A stretch of DNA of 64,000 nucleotides, from NCBI RefSeq assembly GCF_000236705.1, contig NC_016599.1, positions 1,612,001 to 1,676,000 of the forward strand. The letters run 5' to 3'. Below the pieces are notes generated by a model that searched no databases, had not been told where the DNA came from, and saw only the letters and a program-made list of their open reading frames with translations. This stretch comes from Owenweeksia hongkongensis DSM 17368. GTDB taxonomy: Bacteria > Bacteroidota > Bacteroidia > Flavobacteriales > Schleiferiaceae. Position numbers and translations under genes: made by a program. Shown one piece after another: positions 37,533 to 44,353 of the stretch (its first letter is position 1; each line of letters begins with the position of its first letter).

Positions 37533-37931
37533 GGGGCTGACCGGTTTCGACAGCAAGATGAAATGGGTCGTAAGCATGCCGGAGTATGAGGTTACCTTCC
37601 GATATCAAGGTTCTTCAAATTATAGTTGGCGAAAATAACTTCGCACTTGCCGCGTAATCACTCGATAGAGGGTTACAGCTAATCTCAGCGTAAGACGCGG
37701 GAGCAAGTCATCTCTCAAACCCTAGGTCTGGTTGGGTTTGATCAAGAGGTGTCATTAAATCCGGACTAGTAAGTGTAGCGTTGCGTACCACTTTCGAAAC
37801 TCTAATTCGTAACTAAGCTATAGTTGGGGTGTTTGTTCCCAGGCTCTAGTCGAAAATCTAATGACAAAATAAGCATGTAGAAAGCTACTGATTTCCTTGT
37901 TTGCACGTGGGTTCGACTCCCACCAGCTCCA
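37533..37931 (+). ncRNA. ssrA: Transfer-messenger RNA (tmRNA)
   Basis: The 5' end GGGGCTGACCGGTTTCGACA and the 3' end GGGTTCGACTCCCACCAGCTCCA are the universal tmRNA ends. GGGGCTG pairs with CAGCTCC to form the acceptor stem; CCA is not encoded. The tag frame is at 37628-37657 and reads GENNFALAA then TAA, with the resume codon just before or at GGC. It rescues stalled ribosomes together with SmpB. One-piece form, about 399 bases; pseudoknot regions fill the rest. Confidence 0.97.
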
Positions 37932-37938
37932 CAATTCA

Positions 37939-38061: not shown

Positions 38062-39318
38062 TTAGTGCTTAATAATTTTATAATGAGACTGCACTCCATC
38101 ATTGCTGATCAGGTGAAGAAGATAAACACCATTTTGCAACTTGGTAAGATTAAGTTTCAAATCTATCTCATCGATTTTTACCAGTCCTTTTGTCACAACA
38201 GAACCTTTTAAATCAGTAACTGAATAAGCCTTAACCTTAGCACCTTCAGACACCAAAGAAACATTAAGTATATCTTTTACTGGATTTGGATAAACCTCAA
38301 AAATCGCCTGTGTATCAAACTCTTCAACCCCCACAGTAGGTTCCTTTACTGTAAGCGTAAATCCTGAATTCTTATAAATCAAATTTCCCACACTATCAAT
38401 ACCTAAAGTGTCGCAAAATGTAGATGTGCACACCGCTCCCACACTGTCAATAGAAGTTGCAGTAAGACACACGGCATAAGCTCCGGCATTAGCATAGGTA
38501 TGCGCAGGAAAGGGAAGATTAGACGTATCTCCATCCCCAAAATCCCAGTGATAGGTAGTAGTGTAATTTGTATCTCTTATAGATGGTGTGGAATTGTTGT
38601 AAATAAAGGCATAACCATTTCCCGAATTTACGGTATCTACAGAGTATGCTGCCTGGCAAAACGTGGGTGGGTTAAAAGGGAGCACCTCAATTGTATCTCT
38701 GTACCAATCTTGAGAAAAATAACCATTGCCTATACTAGAATCACTTTCTGTAAACGAATACTGAACATAGTATTTACCAGGACCCGGGTAGGTGTGACTA
38801 AATTTTGAGTTTACCAGCGCAGAATCATTATCACCATAAAAGCAGAAATAAGTGCTCTTAGTGCCTTGGAAACCCGCTCCAACTGAATTATCTGTAAAAT
38901 CAATTGTGTTGGCCTGACTTGTAGACTGTGCATAAGTAACCCCAGCTGTACCTGTGTAGGAATTCATCGAGCAAGTCTGAGTTATAGTATCTTCATACAT
39001 TCCCCATGTGTTTGGGGGCATTGGACTTGCTACTCCTTTTATTTTGTTTCCATTGCAATCATAGGAAAAGCTTACTATGCTATCAAAAATCAAGGAGCTA
39101 CTAATAGAATCTGAGTAACCTCCAAATGAGGAACTATCAGAGTACCCAGACATCCTCTTTACAATTGTAGTTCCATTATAAACGTTTATCCATACTTTTT
39201 GTCCTGGAATTCCCACTGATGTTGGTGTCCAAACACCTACATATATAGAGTGATATGTTTGAGCTGAACCTAAAAAGGTTCCACACAATAGAGTTAAAGC
39301 AAGTAATAGTTTTTTCAT
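38062..39318 (-). CDS. Secreted PKD-domain protein with T9SS sorting domain (paralogue 1)
   Basis: 418 residues: signal peptide (KKLLLALTLLCGTFLGSAQ), an N-terminal beta domain (VWINVYNGTTIVKRMSGYSD), then PKD-like domains with YHWDFGDGDTSN and HTYANAGAYAVCLTATS, and a type A sorting domain (FEVYPNPVKDILNVSL ... HYKIIKH). The PKD stretch and the following segment FCDTLGIDSVGNLIYKNSG are closely shared with the genes at 41820 and 43005. Likely displayed on the cell surface or released by the T9SS. It follows the barrel protein gene by 54 bases on the same strand. Confidence 0.88.
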   Translation of the reverse strand: MKKLLLALTLLCGTFLGSAQTYHSIYVGVWTPTSVGIPGQKVWINVYNGTTIVKRMSGYSDSSSFGGYSDSISSSLIFDSIVSFSYDCNGNKIKGVASPMPPNTWGMYEDTITQTCSMNSYTGTAGVTYAQSTSQANTIDFTDNSVGAGFQGTKSTYFCFYGDNDSALVNSKFSHTYPGPGKYYVQYSFTESDSSIGNGYFSQDWYRDTIEVLPFNPPTFCQAAYSVDTVNSGNGYAFIYNNSTPSIRDTNYTTTYHWDFGDGDTSNLPFPAHTYANAGAYAVCLTATSIDSVGAVCTSTFCDTLGIDSVGNLIYKNSGFTLTVKEPTVGVEEFDTQAIFEVYPNPVKDILNVSLVSEGAKVKAYSVTDLKGSVVTKGLVKIDEIDLKLNLTKLQNGVYLLHLISNDGVQSHYKIIKH

Positions 39319-39372
39319 AAAAATAAATTAGAGGACAATGTGTATTTGAATATAAATGGAAAATTAATTCGA

Positions 39373-41169
39373 CTAAAAATTATAAGCCACACCTACAGAA
39401 GCTCCCACACGATAGTAGCGTTGACGAACACCATCATTGGTTAGCATAGAGTTTATCTGATAACTACCCAATGCATTGAGGCGTACACTTATGGCTCGGT
39501 TGATGTAAAAATCAGCTCCCACCTGAAGCAACCCACTATACTGAATTTCAGATAAGCTTGCTTTGCTTCCTCCTTCGGTATAAGTTGAAGTTCCAAACTG
39601 AGGATATCTGTAACTCGCCTGAATTGGCAACCCTACAATTACACCGGCTTTTACCCAAGGTTTAATTCTTCCTGTGCCAAAACGATAACCTACGGTCAAT
39701 GGTACTTCAATGTATCGGAAAGTATTTCGTCCTGAGTAAGAATTAGCCGTACTATCATCATTTCTATACGAAAGATGATAATTCCAATGTCCTTGGTTCA
39801 CTGTATCTATGACACGCGTAGAGTCAATCGAGATGATATTTGGATAGTTAGATGGAGAATCATAGCGCCCATCAAAAGCAACGGTCTCAACTGAAGAGGT
39901 AACGTCATAAAGTGTATAATCCACATCTTCACCATACTCGGCCCATCCAAGACCAACTCCTACCGTCCAGTTTTTATTTACAAAGTAATCCAACCCTACA
40001 CCTGTCGGAGTAGTGTAAATAGGCTTCTCAAAAGCTTTACGTTTATCAATATCACTTTCATTACCACCGCTCAATACGTTCCCGGTGAATAAATAACCAC
40101 CCCAAACAGAAAGTGCAAAACGCTCCTTAGAAAAGGTCAGTAAATCAGGTATTGGCAAATCCTCTTCTGCCTCCAAAAATGCCAAATGTGCAGCTTTTGT
40201 AGTAAGGAGATTGCTGGCAGATTCTGCAATTTCTTCTTCTGGGCTTTTCTCTACTAAGCTTTCTTCTTTTAACTCTTCAGCATCATTGGATTCAGCTACA
40301 GCTAAACCTTCATCCTCTGGCTCCAATACAGTTTGCTCAGTGTTTTCAGATGCTATGTCCGCAATTGTACTTTCAGAAACCGAAATTTCCTCTATATAAT
40401 CTGTCTCTTCTTCTATTTGATTAGTTGAAGTTTCCTCCAATATAACCTCAGTTGCAGAAGTTGTCTTTTCCTCCTGTAATTTTTGCTCTTCATTTATAAT
40501 CAAAGCTTCATCTGCCGCTGCAATAGATGTTTCTGCAACGGGTATTATAACATCCTCCTCTGAGAGTGTCTCGATTTCTTTTTCTTCCGAAATAACCACC
40601 GCATCTTTCACAGACTCTTTAGCCACCTCATTAGCTACTATAACTTCACTTCCTGCCTCTTCAGTATTTGACTCACCCTGTGCCGTATTTGTTACAGATT
40701 TCTCTACAATAGGGGTGGCAGCCATTGCTTCCTGTCCATTTTCTTGCTCCTTGCTTTCAGGAATGATAGTAGTTTGTTGAGCATTATCCATTGTAGATTC
40801 TACAACATCTGCTTCTGAGGAATTTAAACTTTCAGTTGAAAAATCCGAAGGATACAATTCTTTATCATCAGAACTAATTGAAACCCCATCAGCGGGATCC
40901 ATCTGAATAGTTGTGGGTGTAGGCAGTTCTTTAGCAGGATTTACATCTTTTGGCTGATTAGCAATAAAGAAAGGAATACCAATCACAGTAACTACAACAG
41001 CCGCCAATCCAGTTAAATACAAGGGATTTGACATCATAGTTTTAGGAGGAGTAACAGGCATCTGCTTATCCAAAAGGCTTTGCATAGAGTCCCAGCCCTT
41101 TTGCTTCATGCCTTCAGAATACTTCTGTTCCTTAAAGTGATTTTTATATTTCTTATCTATCCAGCTCAC
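39373..41169 (-). CDS. Putative anti-sigma protein fused to an outer-membrane beta-barrel
   Basis: 598 residues in four parts: about 49 cytosolic residues (WIDKKYKNHFKEQ ... GWDSMQSLLDKQMPV); one membrane helix (50-70, PLYLTGLAAVVVTVIGIPFF); a very acidic, low-complexity linker of roughly 270 residues rich in E, S, T and A; and a C-terminal 250-residue barrel (FALSVWGGYLFTG, GVGLDYFVNKNWTVGVGLGW, end YYRVGASVGVAYNF). Its ATG overlaps the ECF sigma stop (ATGA), so the two are translationally coupled, which suggests an anti-sigma role for the N-terminus. The linker is long enough to cross the periplasm. No cleavable signal peptide. Confidence 0.8.
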   Translation of the reverse strand: MSWIDKKYKNHFKEQKYSEGMKQKGWDSMQSLLDKQMPVTPPKTMMSNPLYLTGLAAVVVTVIGIPFFIANQPKDVNPAKELPTPTTIQMDPADGVSISSDDKELYPSDFSTESLNSSEADVVESTMDNAQQTTIIPESKEQENGQEAMAATPIVEKSVTNTAQGESNTEEAGSEVIVANEVAKESVKDAVVISEEKEIETLSEEDVIIPVAETSIAAADEALIINEEQKLQEEKTTSATEVILEETSTNQIEEETDYIEEISVSESTIADIASENTEQTVLEPEDEGLAVAESNDAEELKEESLVEKSPEEEIAESASNLLTTKAAHLAFLEAEEDLPIPDLLTFSKERFALSVWGGYLFTGNVLSGGNESDIDKRKAFEKPIYTTPTGVGLDYFVNKNWTVGVGLGWAEYGEDVDYTLYDVTSSVETVAFDGRYDSPSNYPNIISIDSTRVIDTVNQGHWNYHLSYRNDDSTANSYSGRNTFRYIEVPLTVGYRFGTGRIKPWVKAGVIVGLPIQASYRYPQFGTSTYTEGGSKASLSEIQYSGLLQVGADFYINRAISVRLNALGSYQINSMLTNDGVRQRYYRVGASVGVAYNF

Positions 41170-41726
41170 GCTTTCTTTATTCCTAATTCAGGTGCAGGAA
41201 GTCTTTCCTGCAGTTTTCTTCGTGCATTGGTCAAATGCCTGATGGACGACCTTTCGGTAATACCCATCATATCTCCTATTTCTTTATGCGAGAAACCATC
41301 TACTGCATATAAGTTGAACACCAACTTCTCCGAATCCTTCAAGCATTCCATCAGGTGTTCCAAATATTCCGCCTCTTCCCATCCATGAGAGTCAGCCGAA
41401 TCAAAATCAGCCGAAACATTTTCCAGCTCGTCCTCATTTTCATCGATAAACTCACGCCTTCTTATCTTTTTGCGATAAGCATCAATAGCTTCATTTACCG
41501 TTATTTTCGCTATCCATGGTTTTAATTCATATTTTGAATTATAACTCTCTAAATTTTTCAGCACTTTCATGAACGCCAGGTTGAGGGTTTCCATAGCTAA
41601 ATCCTCATCCTTACAATATCGCATGCAAATGGACATCATCAGATCAAAGAATTGATTGTAGAGTTCATTTTGACTCCTACGATCATTCTTTATACAACCC
41701 TCTATTATGCGATTATTCTTCTTCAA
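41166..41726 (-). CDS. ECF-family RNA polymerase sigma factor
   Basis: 186 residues from a TTG start at 41726. Region 2 is NDRRSQNELYNQFFDLMMSI ... LAFMKVLKNLESYNSKYELKPWIAKITVNEAIDAYRK; region 4 is LKDSEKLVFNLYAVDGFSHKEIGDMMGITERSSIRHLTNARRKL. The longest frame extends to 41819, but that stretch contains the terminator of the upstream gene and then a TAGATTTG promoter element, so I trimmed it. It is coupled by a four-base overlap to the putative anti-sigma/barrel gene. Targets unknown; the flanking PKD genes are candidates. Confidence 0.88.
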   Translation of the reverse strand: MKKNNRIIEGCIKNDRRSQNELYNQFFDLMMSICMRYCKDEDLAMETLNLAFMKVLKNLESYNSKYELKPWIAKITVNEAIDAYRKKIRRREFIDENEDELENVSADFDSADSHGWEEAEYLEHLMECLKDSEKLVFNLYAVDGFSHKEIGDMMGITERSSIRHLTNARRKLQERLPAPELGIKKA

Positions 41727-41759
41727 GTAGTGTAGCCTGCCTATATGAGCAAGGCCTCG

Positions 41760-41767
41760 CAAATCTA
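41760..41767 (-). promoter_or_regulatory. -7 element (TAGATTTG) for the ECF sigma operon
   Basis: On the minus strand TAGATTTG matches TAnnTTTG, 33 bases before the TTG start at 41726 and directly after the preceding gene's terminator. Confidence 0.6.
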
Positions 41768-41804
41768 GTAAAACAGAAGCCGGTAAACCACAACCGACTT
41801 CTGT
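41766..41804 (-). terminator. Terminator of the PKD/T9SS protein gene at 41820
   Basis: On the minus strand ACAGAAGTCGGT / ACCGGCTTCTGT, a 12-base stem with one mismatch and an eight-base loop, followed by TTTTACT. It shows that the sigma gene does not start at 41819. Confidence 0.82.
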
Positions 41805-41819
41805 TGTTTGAGATACCAA

Positions 41820-42875
41820 TTATCTATCGACTCTCAATTTGTAATAGGAAACAGGGGTTGTACCATTTACATTTAGTTTTAATACATACATTCCTTCATT
41901 TAAGAATGCTGTATTTATTTGAATTGTTTCGTTATGAAAAATGTGACGGTTTCCTGATAACATCACTTTTCCATTCACACATAATATTTCCCAATCAATC
42001 CTCTGTCCATCCTCCTCTTCAGTAGATATATTAACATAATCGCTTGTAGGGTTTGGATAAATTTCAAAACTTGACAGTTCAATTTCTTCAACACTTATAC
42101 TGTACGGATCAAGCACATTTATAGTGAAAGCTGCTCCTGATTTTTTATAAATTAAGTTTCCCAAAGAATCAGCTCCAAAAGTGTCACAATAAGTTTCCGA
42201 ACACAGGTTATTTATACTATCATAACTTGAAACTTTAAGACAAACCTGATACTCACCTGCTGACGAGTAAGTATGGCTTGGATATGCCAAAGTAGAAGTT
42301 CCTCCATCTCCAAAATCCCAATCATAATAAACCGAATACAGAGTATCCTTGCTATTGGGAATAGATGAATTCCAAACTATAATATCTCCAGAATATGAGT
42401 TTGCCGTATCTACAATAAATTCAGCATTACAGGGGGGTGGCTGATAATTTACAACCACCGTTTTACAAATAGTATCAGCACAAAAAACTTGTCCTGTCAC
42501 ACTGTCTTTTACCTCTTGAGCTAGGCACACGTTATAACTTCCATTTGTGAGGTAACTGTGCCTGGGATCACGATCATAACTAAATATACCATCTCCAAAA
42601 AACCAAGTATACTCCACCTTACCATTAGGCACTCCAAAAGTGGTGGAACTTAAATTGGTAAATAACACTAGCCTAAAAGCATTATTTAAAGAGTTTGCCG
42701 AAAAATCTGCGGTACAAGAATCGGCTTGAGCCGTTGACCTGTCAACTGTTTGCAATAAAAAGACATCTTCCCCAAAAGGGAAACTCTGCCGGGCATAAGA
42801 AGAAAATATGCCCAGCAAAAGTAACCATAGCAGCACTAGTTGCTTAGTTGAAGGCCATTGCATCAATCTGATCAT
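41820..42875 (-). CDS. Secreted PKD-domain protein with T9SS sorting domain (paralogue 2)
   Basis: 351 residues: signal sequence (LVLLWLLLLGIFSSYARQ), two PKD domains (EYTWFFGDGIFSYDRD ... HSYLTNGSYNVCLAQ; YYDWDFGDGGTSTLAYPSHTYSSAG), the shared segment YCDTFGADSLGNLIYKKSGAAF and a sorting domain (FEIYPNPTSDYVNIS ... YYKLRVDR). Starts at ATG 42875 or 42863. Paralogous to 38062 and 43005. A terminator separates it from the ECF sigma gene downstream. Confidence 0.87.
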   Translation of the reverse strand: MIRLMQWPSTKQLVLLWLLLLGIFSSYARQSFPFGEDVFLLQTVDRSTAQADSCTADFSANSLNNAFRLVLFTNLSSTTFGVPNGKVEYTWFFGDGIFSYDRDPRHSYLTNGSYNVCLAQEVKDSVTGQVFCADTICKTVVVNYQPPPCNAEFIVDTANSYSGDIIVWNSSIPNSKDTLYSVYYDWDFGDGGTSTLAYPSHTYSSAGEYQVCLKVSSYDSINNLCSETYCDTFGADSLGNLIYKKSGAAFTINVLDPYSISVEEIELSSFEIYPNPTSDYVNISTEEEDGQRIDWEILCVNGKVMLSGNRHIFHNETIQINTAFLNEGMYVLKLNVNGTTPVSYYKLRVDR

Positions 42876-42941
42876 TTTTACGTTTCATTATTAATACGAA
42901 TCAAACGTAACAAATAGGACAGCATTCGGTAATTTTTTAAC

Positions 42942-42976
42942 AAAAAAAAAGAGCAGGATCACACAACCTGCTCTTT
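42942..42976 (-). terminator. Terminator of the PKD/T9SS protein gene at 43005
   Basis: On the minus strand a perfect stem AAAGAGCAGG / CCTGCTCTTT with a nine-base loop and a long T run. Confidence 0.9.
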
Positions 42977-43004
42977 TAAGATACTCATGGGAGGAAAATC
43001 ACAC

Positions 43005-44255
43005 CTAGAAAACCATGAGCTTGCAGCTACTAACAGCGTTACCATCCAATATTTTTAGCTGGTAAACTCCATTAGATAGGGGGTCAACATTTATATTAAA
43101 ATTTCTTGAATGAGACGATTCAACTCCACCGAGCACTTCCTGTCCTCTGCTATTAATTATTACCCATTGCACTTTATCATTTGGCGTCTGCGCTAATTTT
43201 ATAATCACATTTCCATTTGTTGGATTTGGAAACACTTCCACAGTATTATCCCTCTTTATTTCATCAACTCCTAAAGCATTTGGGTTTAACACATTTAGTG
43301 TAAAACCAGCGCCAGAATTTTTATACAAAACATTCCCCGCACTATCTACACCCAAGGTGTCACAATAGGTATTAGTGCATATATTTTGTGAAGAGTCTAT
43401 AGACGTTATTGTGAGGCAAATGGTATAAGACCCTGCGCCCGTGTAAGTATGCGTTGGAAATGCCTGGTTGGAAGTTCCCCCATCTCCAAAGTCCCAAGCA
43501 TAGGACGTGGCGTAACGGGTATTATTATGCAAAGGAGTTGAACGATTATACAATACCAAACTAGCTCCTCCAGAAGCCATAGTATCTACTTCAAAATAAG
43601 CCGTGCAAAACGTGGGAGGACTCGAATTGGAAACAGTATAAGCATTACACACGGTATCTTCACAGTAAACCATTTTAGTAAGTGTGTCTACAATATTTTT
43701 AATCATACATACCGTGTACGAACCTGCCTGTGAATAGGAATGTGAAACATTAGCATTATTATAAGTTGTAGAAAAAGTTCCATCACCAAAAGTCCAATAG
43801 CGCATTAGCATGGCATTAGGAATTGGATTGGAAGAATTTGAATCTCGCAAACTTAAACTCAAACCTGAAGAACTCGCCATTTTCACCATGTTTGGAGCAC
43901 AATTTAAAGCAGGTAACCCCTGACAACCAATTCGCAAGGTGTCATCAAAACTAGTATCGATTGCTGTAGCCAAATAACTATTACTATAAAAGCGACCATT
44001 GCAATCATTTGTCATTACCTGAAAAGTAGTGCTTGCTTGAGAGAAGGTAGTATAGTTATAATACCCTAAGGCATCAGAGTATACTAACTGTTGGGTAAAA
44101 AAACTTCCGTTAGAATATTTATTAATCCAAACTGGCTGGTTGGCTATAGCCGTATTGCTACTATCTAACGCCAAACCTGAAATAGAAAGTGCCTGCTGAC
44201 CGTGGGCCAGCAGGGCACTTAACACTACTATAGATGTAAATAGAAGCTTTTTCAT
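43005..44255 (-). CDS. Secreted PKD-domain protein with T9SS sorting domain (paralogue 3)
   Basis: 416 residues: signal peptide (KKLLFTSIVVLSALLAHGQ), an N-terminal CNA-B-like domain (ISGLALDSSNTAIANQPVWI), two PKD domains (YWTFGDGTFSTTYNN ... SYSQAGSYTVCMI; YAWDFGDGGTSNQAFPTHTY), the segment YCDTLGVDSAGNVLYKNSG and a sorting domain (VEVFPNPTNGNVIIKL ... SSCKLMVF). Very like the genes at 38062 and 41820, so this block grew by duplication. Probably surface adhesion or matrix protein; function inferred only from domains. Confidence 0.88.
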   Translation of the reverse strand: MKKLLFTSIVVLSALLAHGQQALSISGLALDSSNTAIANQPVWINKYSNGSFFTQQLVYSDALGYYNYTTFSQASTTFQVMTNDCNGRFYSNSYLATAIDTSFDDTLRIGCQGLPALNCAPNMVKMASSSGLSLSLRDSNSSNPIPNAMLMRYWTFGDGTFSTTYNNANVSHSYSQAGSYTVCMIKNIVDTLTKMVYCEDTVCNAYTVSNSSPPTFCTAYFEVDTMASGGASLVLYNRSTPLHNNTRYATSYAWDFGDGGTSNQAFPTHTYTGAGSYTICLTITSIDSSQNICTNTYCDTLGVDSAGNVLYKNSGAGFTLNVLNPNALGVDEIKRDNTVEVFPNPTNGNVIIKLAQTPNDKVQWVIINSRGQEVLGGVESSHSRNFNINVDPLSNGVYQLKILDGNAVSSCKLMVF

Positions 44256-44353
44256 TTTGTGTTTTCACCTTTAATACGCTCATGCAAATCTCAATAGGAC
44301 AATTAAAGGCAAACTTTTTTCAAAAACATCATACACCCCTGATTATCAGACAT

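Follow-up and report, generated by a model that had tools for sequence, protein, structure and literature searches.

Our analysis identifies, in the window (the whole stretch of 64,000 nucleotides of the Owenweeksia hongkongensis genome analysed here), a gene pair for an ECF sigma factor and a Dma-type anti-sigma/barrel protein that lies among genes for T9SS-exported PKD proteins. The one-chain design of the barrel protein equals that of an already described family, Dma, and the one-chain idea itself is not new. New here are the coupling to PKD genes upstream of this group of sigma factors, an ECF-type site on those genes and a hairpin motif of the PKD-linked barrels. We consider it probable that the sigma factor is held by Dma until the surface hairpin is engaged, and that it drives the T9SS PKD genes from the site TGTC-N19-CGTA.

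The gene cluster and the predicted architecture of Dma

An ORF check of the window placed all ORFs of the cluster at the coordinates given here, with five genes, all on the minus strand. The sigma gene (41166-41726) lies where the original prediction had put it, opens with TTG at 41726 rather than ATG, and encodes a product of 186 aa with Sigma70_r2 and Sigma70_r4_2 in Pfam; among the 25 NCBIfam matches listed, TIGR02937 alone is above its cut-off. The adjoining gene (39373-41169), assigned from its ORF, Pfam and AlphaFold2, encodes the 598-aa Dma-type protein, for which Pfam gives OMP_b-brl_2 at residues 358-556, above cut-off. It begins with GTG at 41169, and the sigma stop and Dma start share a GTGA overlap, which corrects the earlier reading of ATGA. 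As had been proposed, three T9SS-exported PKD proteins flank the pair on the same strand: one of 351 aa (41820-42875) directly upstream of the sigma gene, one of 416 aa (43005-44255) and a third (38062-39318) downstream of Dma, all three with PKD_4 and Por_Secre_tail (PF18962) above cut-off and with TIGR04183 in agreement. Between the PKD gene and the sigma gene, a hairpin followed by a T-run (41770-41803, minus strand), read by eye, is a probable and possibly leaky terminator; it is absent from the output of the sequence scan of the window, and a scan for sigma-70 promoters stayed at shuffle level (21 found versus 20.4 expected). The gene preceding the cluster is, in our reading, typA-like. 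At the other end, a tmRNA gene (37533-37932, plus strand; tag GENNFALAA) lies between the third PKD gene and a gene that Pfam identifies as alanine dehydrogenase-like.

The original prediction had a single chain running from the cytosol through an inner-membrane helix and an acidic linker to an outer-membrane barrel, and structural modelling supports this as a prediction. AlphaFold2 on the whole 598-aa chain with 22 relatives (mean pLDDT 59.5, pTM 0.44) predicted helices at residues 3-13 and 21-36 with low confidence and a further helix at 49-70, and residues 1-75 modelled separately with 45 relatives gave the same three helices (mean pLDDT 80.7, pTM 0.33), W26 being the sole column conserved at 90% or more in this alignment. 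Residues 1-36 (41062-41169), with two predicted cytosolic helices and the near-invariant W26, may form a sigma-binding domain. They are followed by a predicted inner-membrane helix at residues 49-70 (40960-41025), found in both models, and by a predicted disordered acidic tether at residues 71-342 (40144-40959), with pLDDT below 50 over residues 70-90 and 95-342 and a composition, over its 272 residues, of 26% D+E and 5% K+R. For residues 349-598 (39376-40125), structure prediction, which had been suggested as a check, returned a confident barrel with 8 strands between 350 and 597 and pLDDT mostly 85-97; structure comparison with OmpA, NspA, OprF and OmpW gave Z about 18, and Foldseek was also run. 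A sequence search of the PDB with the Dma profile gave no barrel or anti-sigma match; its weak matches, TolA and FtsY among them, covered the helices and tether and were rejected.

Two long strands of the predicted barrel, 401-433 and 459-496, flank a hairpin at 445-456/459, which we infer to be extracellular because both barrel ends should face the periplasm. This hairpin carries RVIDTVNQGHW (residues 452-462; 39784-39816, minus strand), and the corresponding expression [WR]x[IV]x5Gx[WYF], composed after inspection of the PKD-linked sequences and counted over related loci, occurs in the last 300 residues of 21 of 23 PKD-linked partners, 0 of 61 others and 1 of 2 whose upstream gene is off the contig, against shuffle expectations of about 0.5, 0.8 and 0.05; the count was made without a score limit, and the 23 include L065 (158 bits) and the 61 at least one non-Dma neighbour (L020). 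Among the 80 named loci across Bacteroidota described below, none of the 67 testable downstream proteins has the motif. We regard it as a marker of a clade, accompanying the PKD gene, and not as proof of contact.

Conservation of the gene pair and its PKD neighbours

A sigma profile search of 246 genomes of the order gave a match at 1e-25 in 114 of them, and neighbourhoods were taken for about 110 of the best 150 sigma places, roughly best first. The resulting set comprises 116 distinct loci of at least 190 bits, a few of them from another search, with places below 190 bits excluded and L056 and L081 removed before counting as duplicate sigma sequences. In all 116 loci the next downstream gene lies on the same strand, abutting or overlapping the sigma gene in 102; the partner has at least 380 aa in 83, a hydrophobic segment within its first 110 residues in 109 and a barrel, by our own profile, in 79. 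The pair, whose gene order had been suggested as something to look for in other genomes, recurs in 116 of 116 loci, beyond chance. Across Bacteroidota, 80 named loci have a same-strand gene next downstream in 78 cases, an N-terminal profile match in 75 and a barrel profile match in 47 (own profiles). When GTDB contigs were searched with the barrel protein alone, no relative came up, and a search of its own genome gave no other match better than E 0.236, though Dma-type partners of other sigma genes exist there. Some related sigmas (L024, L093, L098, L101, L048, L051, L061, L073 and L080) have a short membrane anti-sigma protein of about 240 aa with no barrel match, and a T9SS-tail gene upstream. 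In a sister sigma-Dma clade, 18 of 19 rows have a gene for a lipoprotein of about 375 aa after Dma (e.g. L026 3113-6005), with PKD_4 in Pfam for L083 and not for L026 or L084.

Genes for secreted proteins are concentrated at the position immediately upstream of sigma. T9SS and PKD profiles were self-built, and Pfam agreed on the proteins checked. Position -1 holds a T9SS-tail gene in 44 of 114 loci, 33 of these on the same strand, and T9SS-tail genes number 25 of 529 at +2 to +6; a same-strand PKD+T9SS gene is found at -1 in 22 of 114 loci versus 3 of 529 at +2 to +6, and tandem PKD genes lift -2 (7/112) and -3 (5/104) as well. On the sigma tree, the PKD label requires 4 changes versus 20.5 when shuffled, and it falls into three sub-clades plus the single L075, all within one 45-row clade. 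Two gene contexts recur, typA-like-PKDs-sigma-Dma in the window and L031-L033, and fadA-like-PKD-sigma-Dma-acyl-CoA dehydrogenase-like in L029, L041 and, judged by gene lengths, several more; these enzyme names are what we take the genes to be. The genome itself holds a second PKD-sigma-Dma locus at 1747000-1753500 (L029 1269-4867), with its own TGTC-N19-CGTA site.

The promoter-like site TGTC-N19-CGTA

A promoter-like site TGTC-N19-CGTA, defined after side-by-side reading of the PKD leaders, lies upstream of the 351-aa PKD gene (42893-42921) and of the 416-aa PKD gene (44273-44301), both on the minus strand, as seen in the leader count and in the genome pattern search. Among the 33 PKD+T9SS genes of the 22 PKD-linked loci, 24 are preceded by the site when spacings of 17 to 20 are allowed, with spacing 19 in 23 and 18 in one; L034, whose contig ends before its PKD+T9SS gene, qualifies this count, and L065 and L075 lie outside the 22 loci, with their genes counted under the remainder. 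Within the same loci the site precedes 2 of the 244 other genes and none of the 21 sigma genes, and elsewhere 1 of 96 sigma, 0 of 54 T9SS and 0 of 962 other genes. The nine PKD+T9SS genes that do not have it include the third PKD gene of the window (38062-39318). By our count, the loci come from 18 genomes and 9 genera, all of one family; the site counts are not independent, because all site-bearing loci belong to this family, and Fisher tests, which treat related loci as independent, serve as a guide only. An open enumeration of 4+4 dyads ranked TGTC-N19-CGTA first in PKD leaders (22 of 32, versus a shuffle maximum of 6).

The composition of the site is that of an ECF-type promoter, with -35 and -10 boxes, a fixed spacing and CGT at -10: nearly all of the 23 N19 sites read TGTC[CA][CT] and CGTA[TGC]T[AT], and most intervening bases are free. 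A CGT box at -10 is assigned to ECF sigma factors in a study of transcript starts in Flavobacterium psychrophilum, as far as its accessible text goes (PMC9723704). Other sigma clades have different dyads before their own sigma genes, for example CAAC-N18-TGTC in 12 of 16 in the clade of L024 and L093. L065 and L075, which belong to another family and whose -1 gene is PKD+T9SS, lack both the site and the hairpin motif, and among the 80 named loci across Bacteroidota the site precedes 0 of 40 same-strand upstream genes, the PKD+T9SS genes upstream in L240, L264, L277 and L280 likewise having neither site nor motif. The PKD leaders of L041 and L082, from one sub-clade, have no TGTC-N19-CGTA and share, by eye, GGCCCTTT followed by CGTAAT, which may possibly reflect a shifted specificity.

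Searched over its own genome, the pattern TGTC-N18/19-CGTAnT occurs 29 times versus 52 for the reversed pattern; there is no genome-wide excess, so that the claim for the site is based on where it lies and how it is spaced rather than on how often it occurs. Four of the 29 matches lie outside ORFs before a same-strand gene, and three of these belong to PKD genes in the two PKD-sigma-Dma loci, namely both upstream PKD genes of the window and that of L029. The fourth non-coding site precedes an unrelated 97-aa gene (L203 4285-4578) with a C-terminal hydrophobic stretch and no Pfam family. Eight relatives that have the locus together contain 41 occurrences of TGTC-N18/19-CGTAnTA, 22 with spacing 19 and 19 with spacing 18. 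Of the N19 sites, 14 lie before T9SS-tail genes, these being PKD genes of sigma loci and two tandem T9SS genes of G029 with no PKD match, and the other 8 lie inside ORFs; 12 of the 14 came from site-defining loci (one a duplicate copy), which leaves the spacing contrast and the G029 pair as the fresh evidence. The G029 genes (L201 4604-7436) are away from the sigma locus and have near-identical TGTC-N19-CGTA leaders. None of the 19 N18 sites precedes a T9SS-tail gene. Another ORF begins 8 bp after one of them, a second lies outside ORFs and is followed by no gene, and the remainder were scored as inside ORFs, the L323 site falling right where its ORF begins. A site was scored in this way if it fell within an ORF of at least 120-150 aa, whichever the frame; this criterion can err, as it did, through an over-long ORF, for the G012 C24 site described below.

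Twelve control genomes, with no listed sigma match or none as strong as most PKD-linked loci, hold 24 N19 sites, 18 scored inside ORFs and 6 outside (four before some ORF). One of them, G012, had given no match in an earlier search and proved to carry a PKD-type Dma (E 2.8e-30 with the Dma profile); its C24 locus has a PKD+T9SS gene headed by TGTC-N19-CGTA, together with sigma and a Dma with WRILGINQGGW. In this chance hold-out, the site and the hairpin motif thus accompany the PKD gene, sigma and Dma. Its other site lies 107 bp before an ORF of more than 2,500 codons, beside a T9SS-tail gene. In the other eleven control genomes, Dma profile matches are weak (best 1.2e-7), and 0 of 22 N19 sites stand directly before a T9SS-tail gene by our own profile, at loci that reach 1.5 kb, where the tails of long genes may be cut; a 137-aa lipoprotein-like ORF starts 76 bp after a G004 site, and a 492-aa ORF 6 bp after a G016 site.

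Proposed mechanism, alternatives and known systems

In the mechanism that we favour, which starts from the observed gene order, promoter-like site and hairpin motif, the N-terminal helices of the predicted chain would hold the sigma factor at the inner membrane, and the outer-membrane barrel, via the disordered tether, would expose a surface hairpin that senses something outside. Engagement of the hairpin, or a disturbance of the envelope or tether, would free the sigma factor, which would then recognise TGTC-N19-CGTA and transcribe the neighbouring T9SS-exported PKD genes from it; the PKD proteins may in turn feed back on the hairpin. The earlier proposal that the flanking PKD genes are targets of the sigma factor is supported for the two upstream genes, which have the site, and is not supported for the downstream gene, which has none. 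Several observations count against this mechanism, among them that the sigma genes have no site, unlike autoregulated ECF operons, that the terminator-like hairpin lies between the PKD gene and sigma, that nine PKD+T9SS genes, the third of the window included, do not have the site, that the pattern shows no genome-wide excess, and that one family holds all site-bearing loci. The co-occurrence of hairpin motif and PKD gene is circumstantial evidence that PKD proteins could possibly be the signal or ligand of Dma. We can also imagine, with rather less confidence and as an unlikely extension, a one-protein circuit that monitors T9SS export, in which exported PKD proteins dock, or fail to dock, on the Dma hairpin and the tether tells sigma to raise or lower the same proteins and other T9SS cargo. 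If this were true, Dma barrels would act as receptors of secreted proteins, and every Dma subfamily would read a surface protein of its own.

The data could also be read as a general envelope-stress sensor as in Bacteroides, with the PKD genes as passengers and TGTC-N19-CGTA recognised by a different ECF sigma factor; the genome has 14 Sigma70_r2 matches, at least five with Dma-type partners. Published Dma systems, in the accessible parts of the reports, answer envelope stress and control vesiculation (PMC13088901; PMC9308784), and the missing site before the sigma gene fits such a sensor as well. However, the site goes with PKD linkage of this sigma group and precedes none of the 54 T9SS genes beside other sigma groups, the N19 sites of the eleven control genomes without a PKD-type Dma are not directly before T9SS-tail genes at loci that reach 1.5 kb, and the other sigma clades have dyads of their own, and we judge this reading improbable. 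We give somewhat less credit still to the idea that TGTC-N19-CGTA is a leader-RNA or repressor site, not a promoter, retained by descent of duplicated PKD genes: these are paralogues, so that some conservation is inherited, and one family holds all site-bearing loci, but boxes and spacing are conserved while most of the 19 intervening bases are free, the site also precedes the two tandem G029 genes (whose near-copy leaders make one case), and tmRNA is the sole Rfam family matched within the window. Least credible to us is that, instead of an anti-sigma factor, the 598-aa product would be an ordinary protein of the outer membrane whose long N-terminus resembles a signal sequence. Its sigma binding is putative, as this reading would have it, but a conserved helical segment, including the near-invariant W26, precedes its membrane helix, which starts at residue 49, the pair is conserved with its overlap, and published relatives with the same layout are reported to function as anti-sigma factors (PMC13088901; PMC9308784). 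We regard as likely the mechanism in which Dma holds the sigma factor and the sigma factor drives the PKD genes.

FecI-FecR-FecA cell-surface signalling uses three proteins, with a large TonB-dependent receptor and a separate anti-sigma protein. As in that system, an outer-membrane receptor would govern an ECF sigma factor here, whereas the window has one chain and an 8-strand barrel; TonB-dependent receptor families were absent from a Pfam scan of seven window proteins. The original prediction held that sigma and barrel pairs had no established function, a view out of date with the description of Dma (PMC13088901; PMC9308784). In what is accessible of that work, Dma has an N-terminal sigma-binding region, a transmembrane helix, a long disordered tether and a C-terminal barrel, with an adjacent sigma gene, and what Dma proteins sense is left open (PMC13088901). 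The 598-aa protein shares the predicted helix after a short N-terminal region, the predicted disordered tether and C-terminal barrel, and the adjacent ECF sigma gene; the family features also include a sigma factor of group ECF21, N-terminal sigma binding and release of sigma on deletion, and we match the window protein by layout and adjacency. For Dma of Bacteroides, effects on vesiculation, NigD and PULs are reported (PMC13088901), whereas the coupling here is to T9SS-exported PKD genes whose promoter-like site is conserved, along with a hairpin motif in the barrel. The M0N98_03760/03761 pair of Phocaeicola vulgatus, as reported, likewise has its anti-sigma gene after the sigma gene, and the anti-sigma protein is predicted to cross the periplasm and to end in a barrel; the pair, however, is induced by exposure to an antibacterial toxin (envelope stress is suggested), and its activation accompanies longer O-antigen (PMC9308784). 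A precedent is PorA-PorXY-SigP of Porphyromonas gingivalis, in which an ECF sigma factor is reported to act downstream of a surface protein that bears a T9SS C-terminal domain, although the route there is via a two-component system and the sigma factor controls T9SS components (PMC7712824). Among titles and the openings of abstracts, with few subscription papers covered, we found no description that couples T9SS or PKD proteins to Dma or to anti-sigma factors.

Dma is a recently described signalling class, and with this locus an output and a candidate sensing surface become testable. The locus supplies a promoter consensus, a short target list and a surface hairpin, which by our count occur together in ten genera of one family, and the secreted-protein genes with the matching site suggest what such a sensor controls in these bacteria. 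If our proposal is correct, T9SS cargo would be tied to a dedicated sigma factor outside Porphyromonas.
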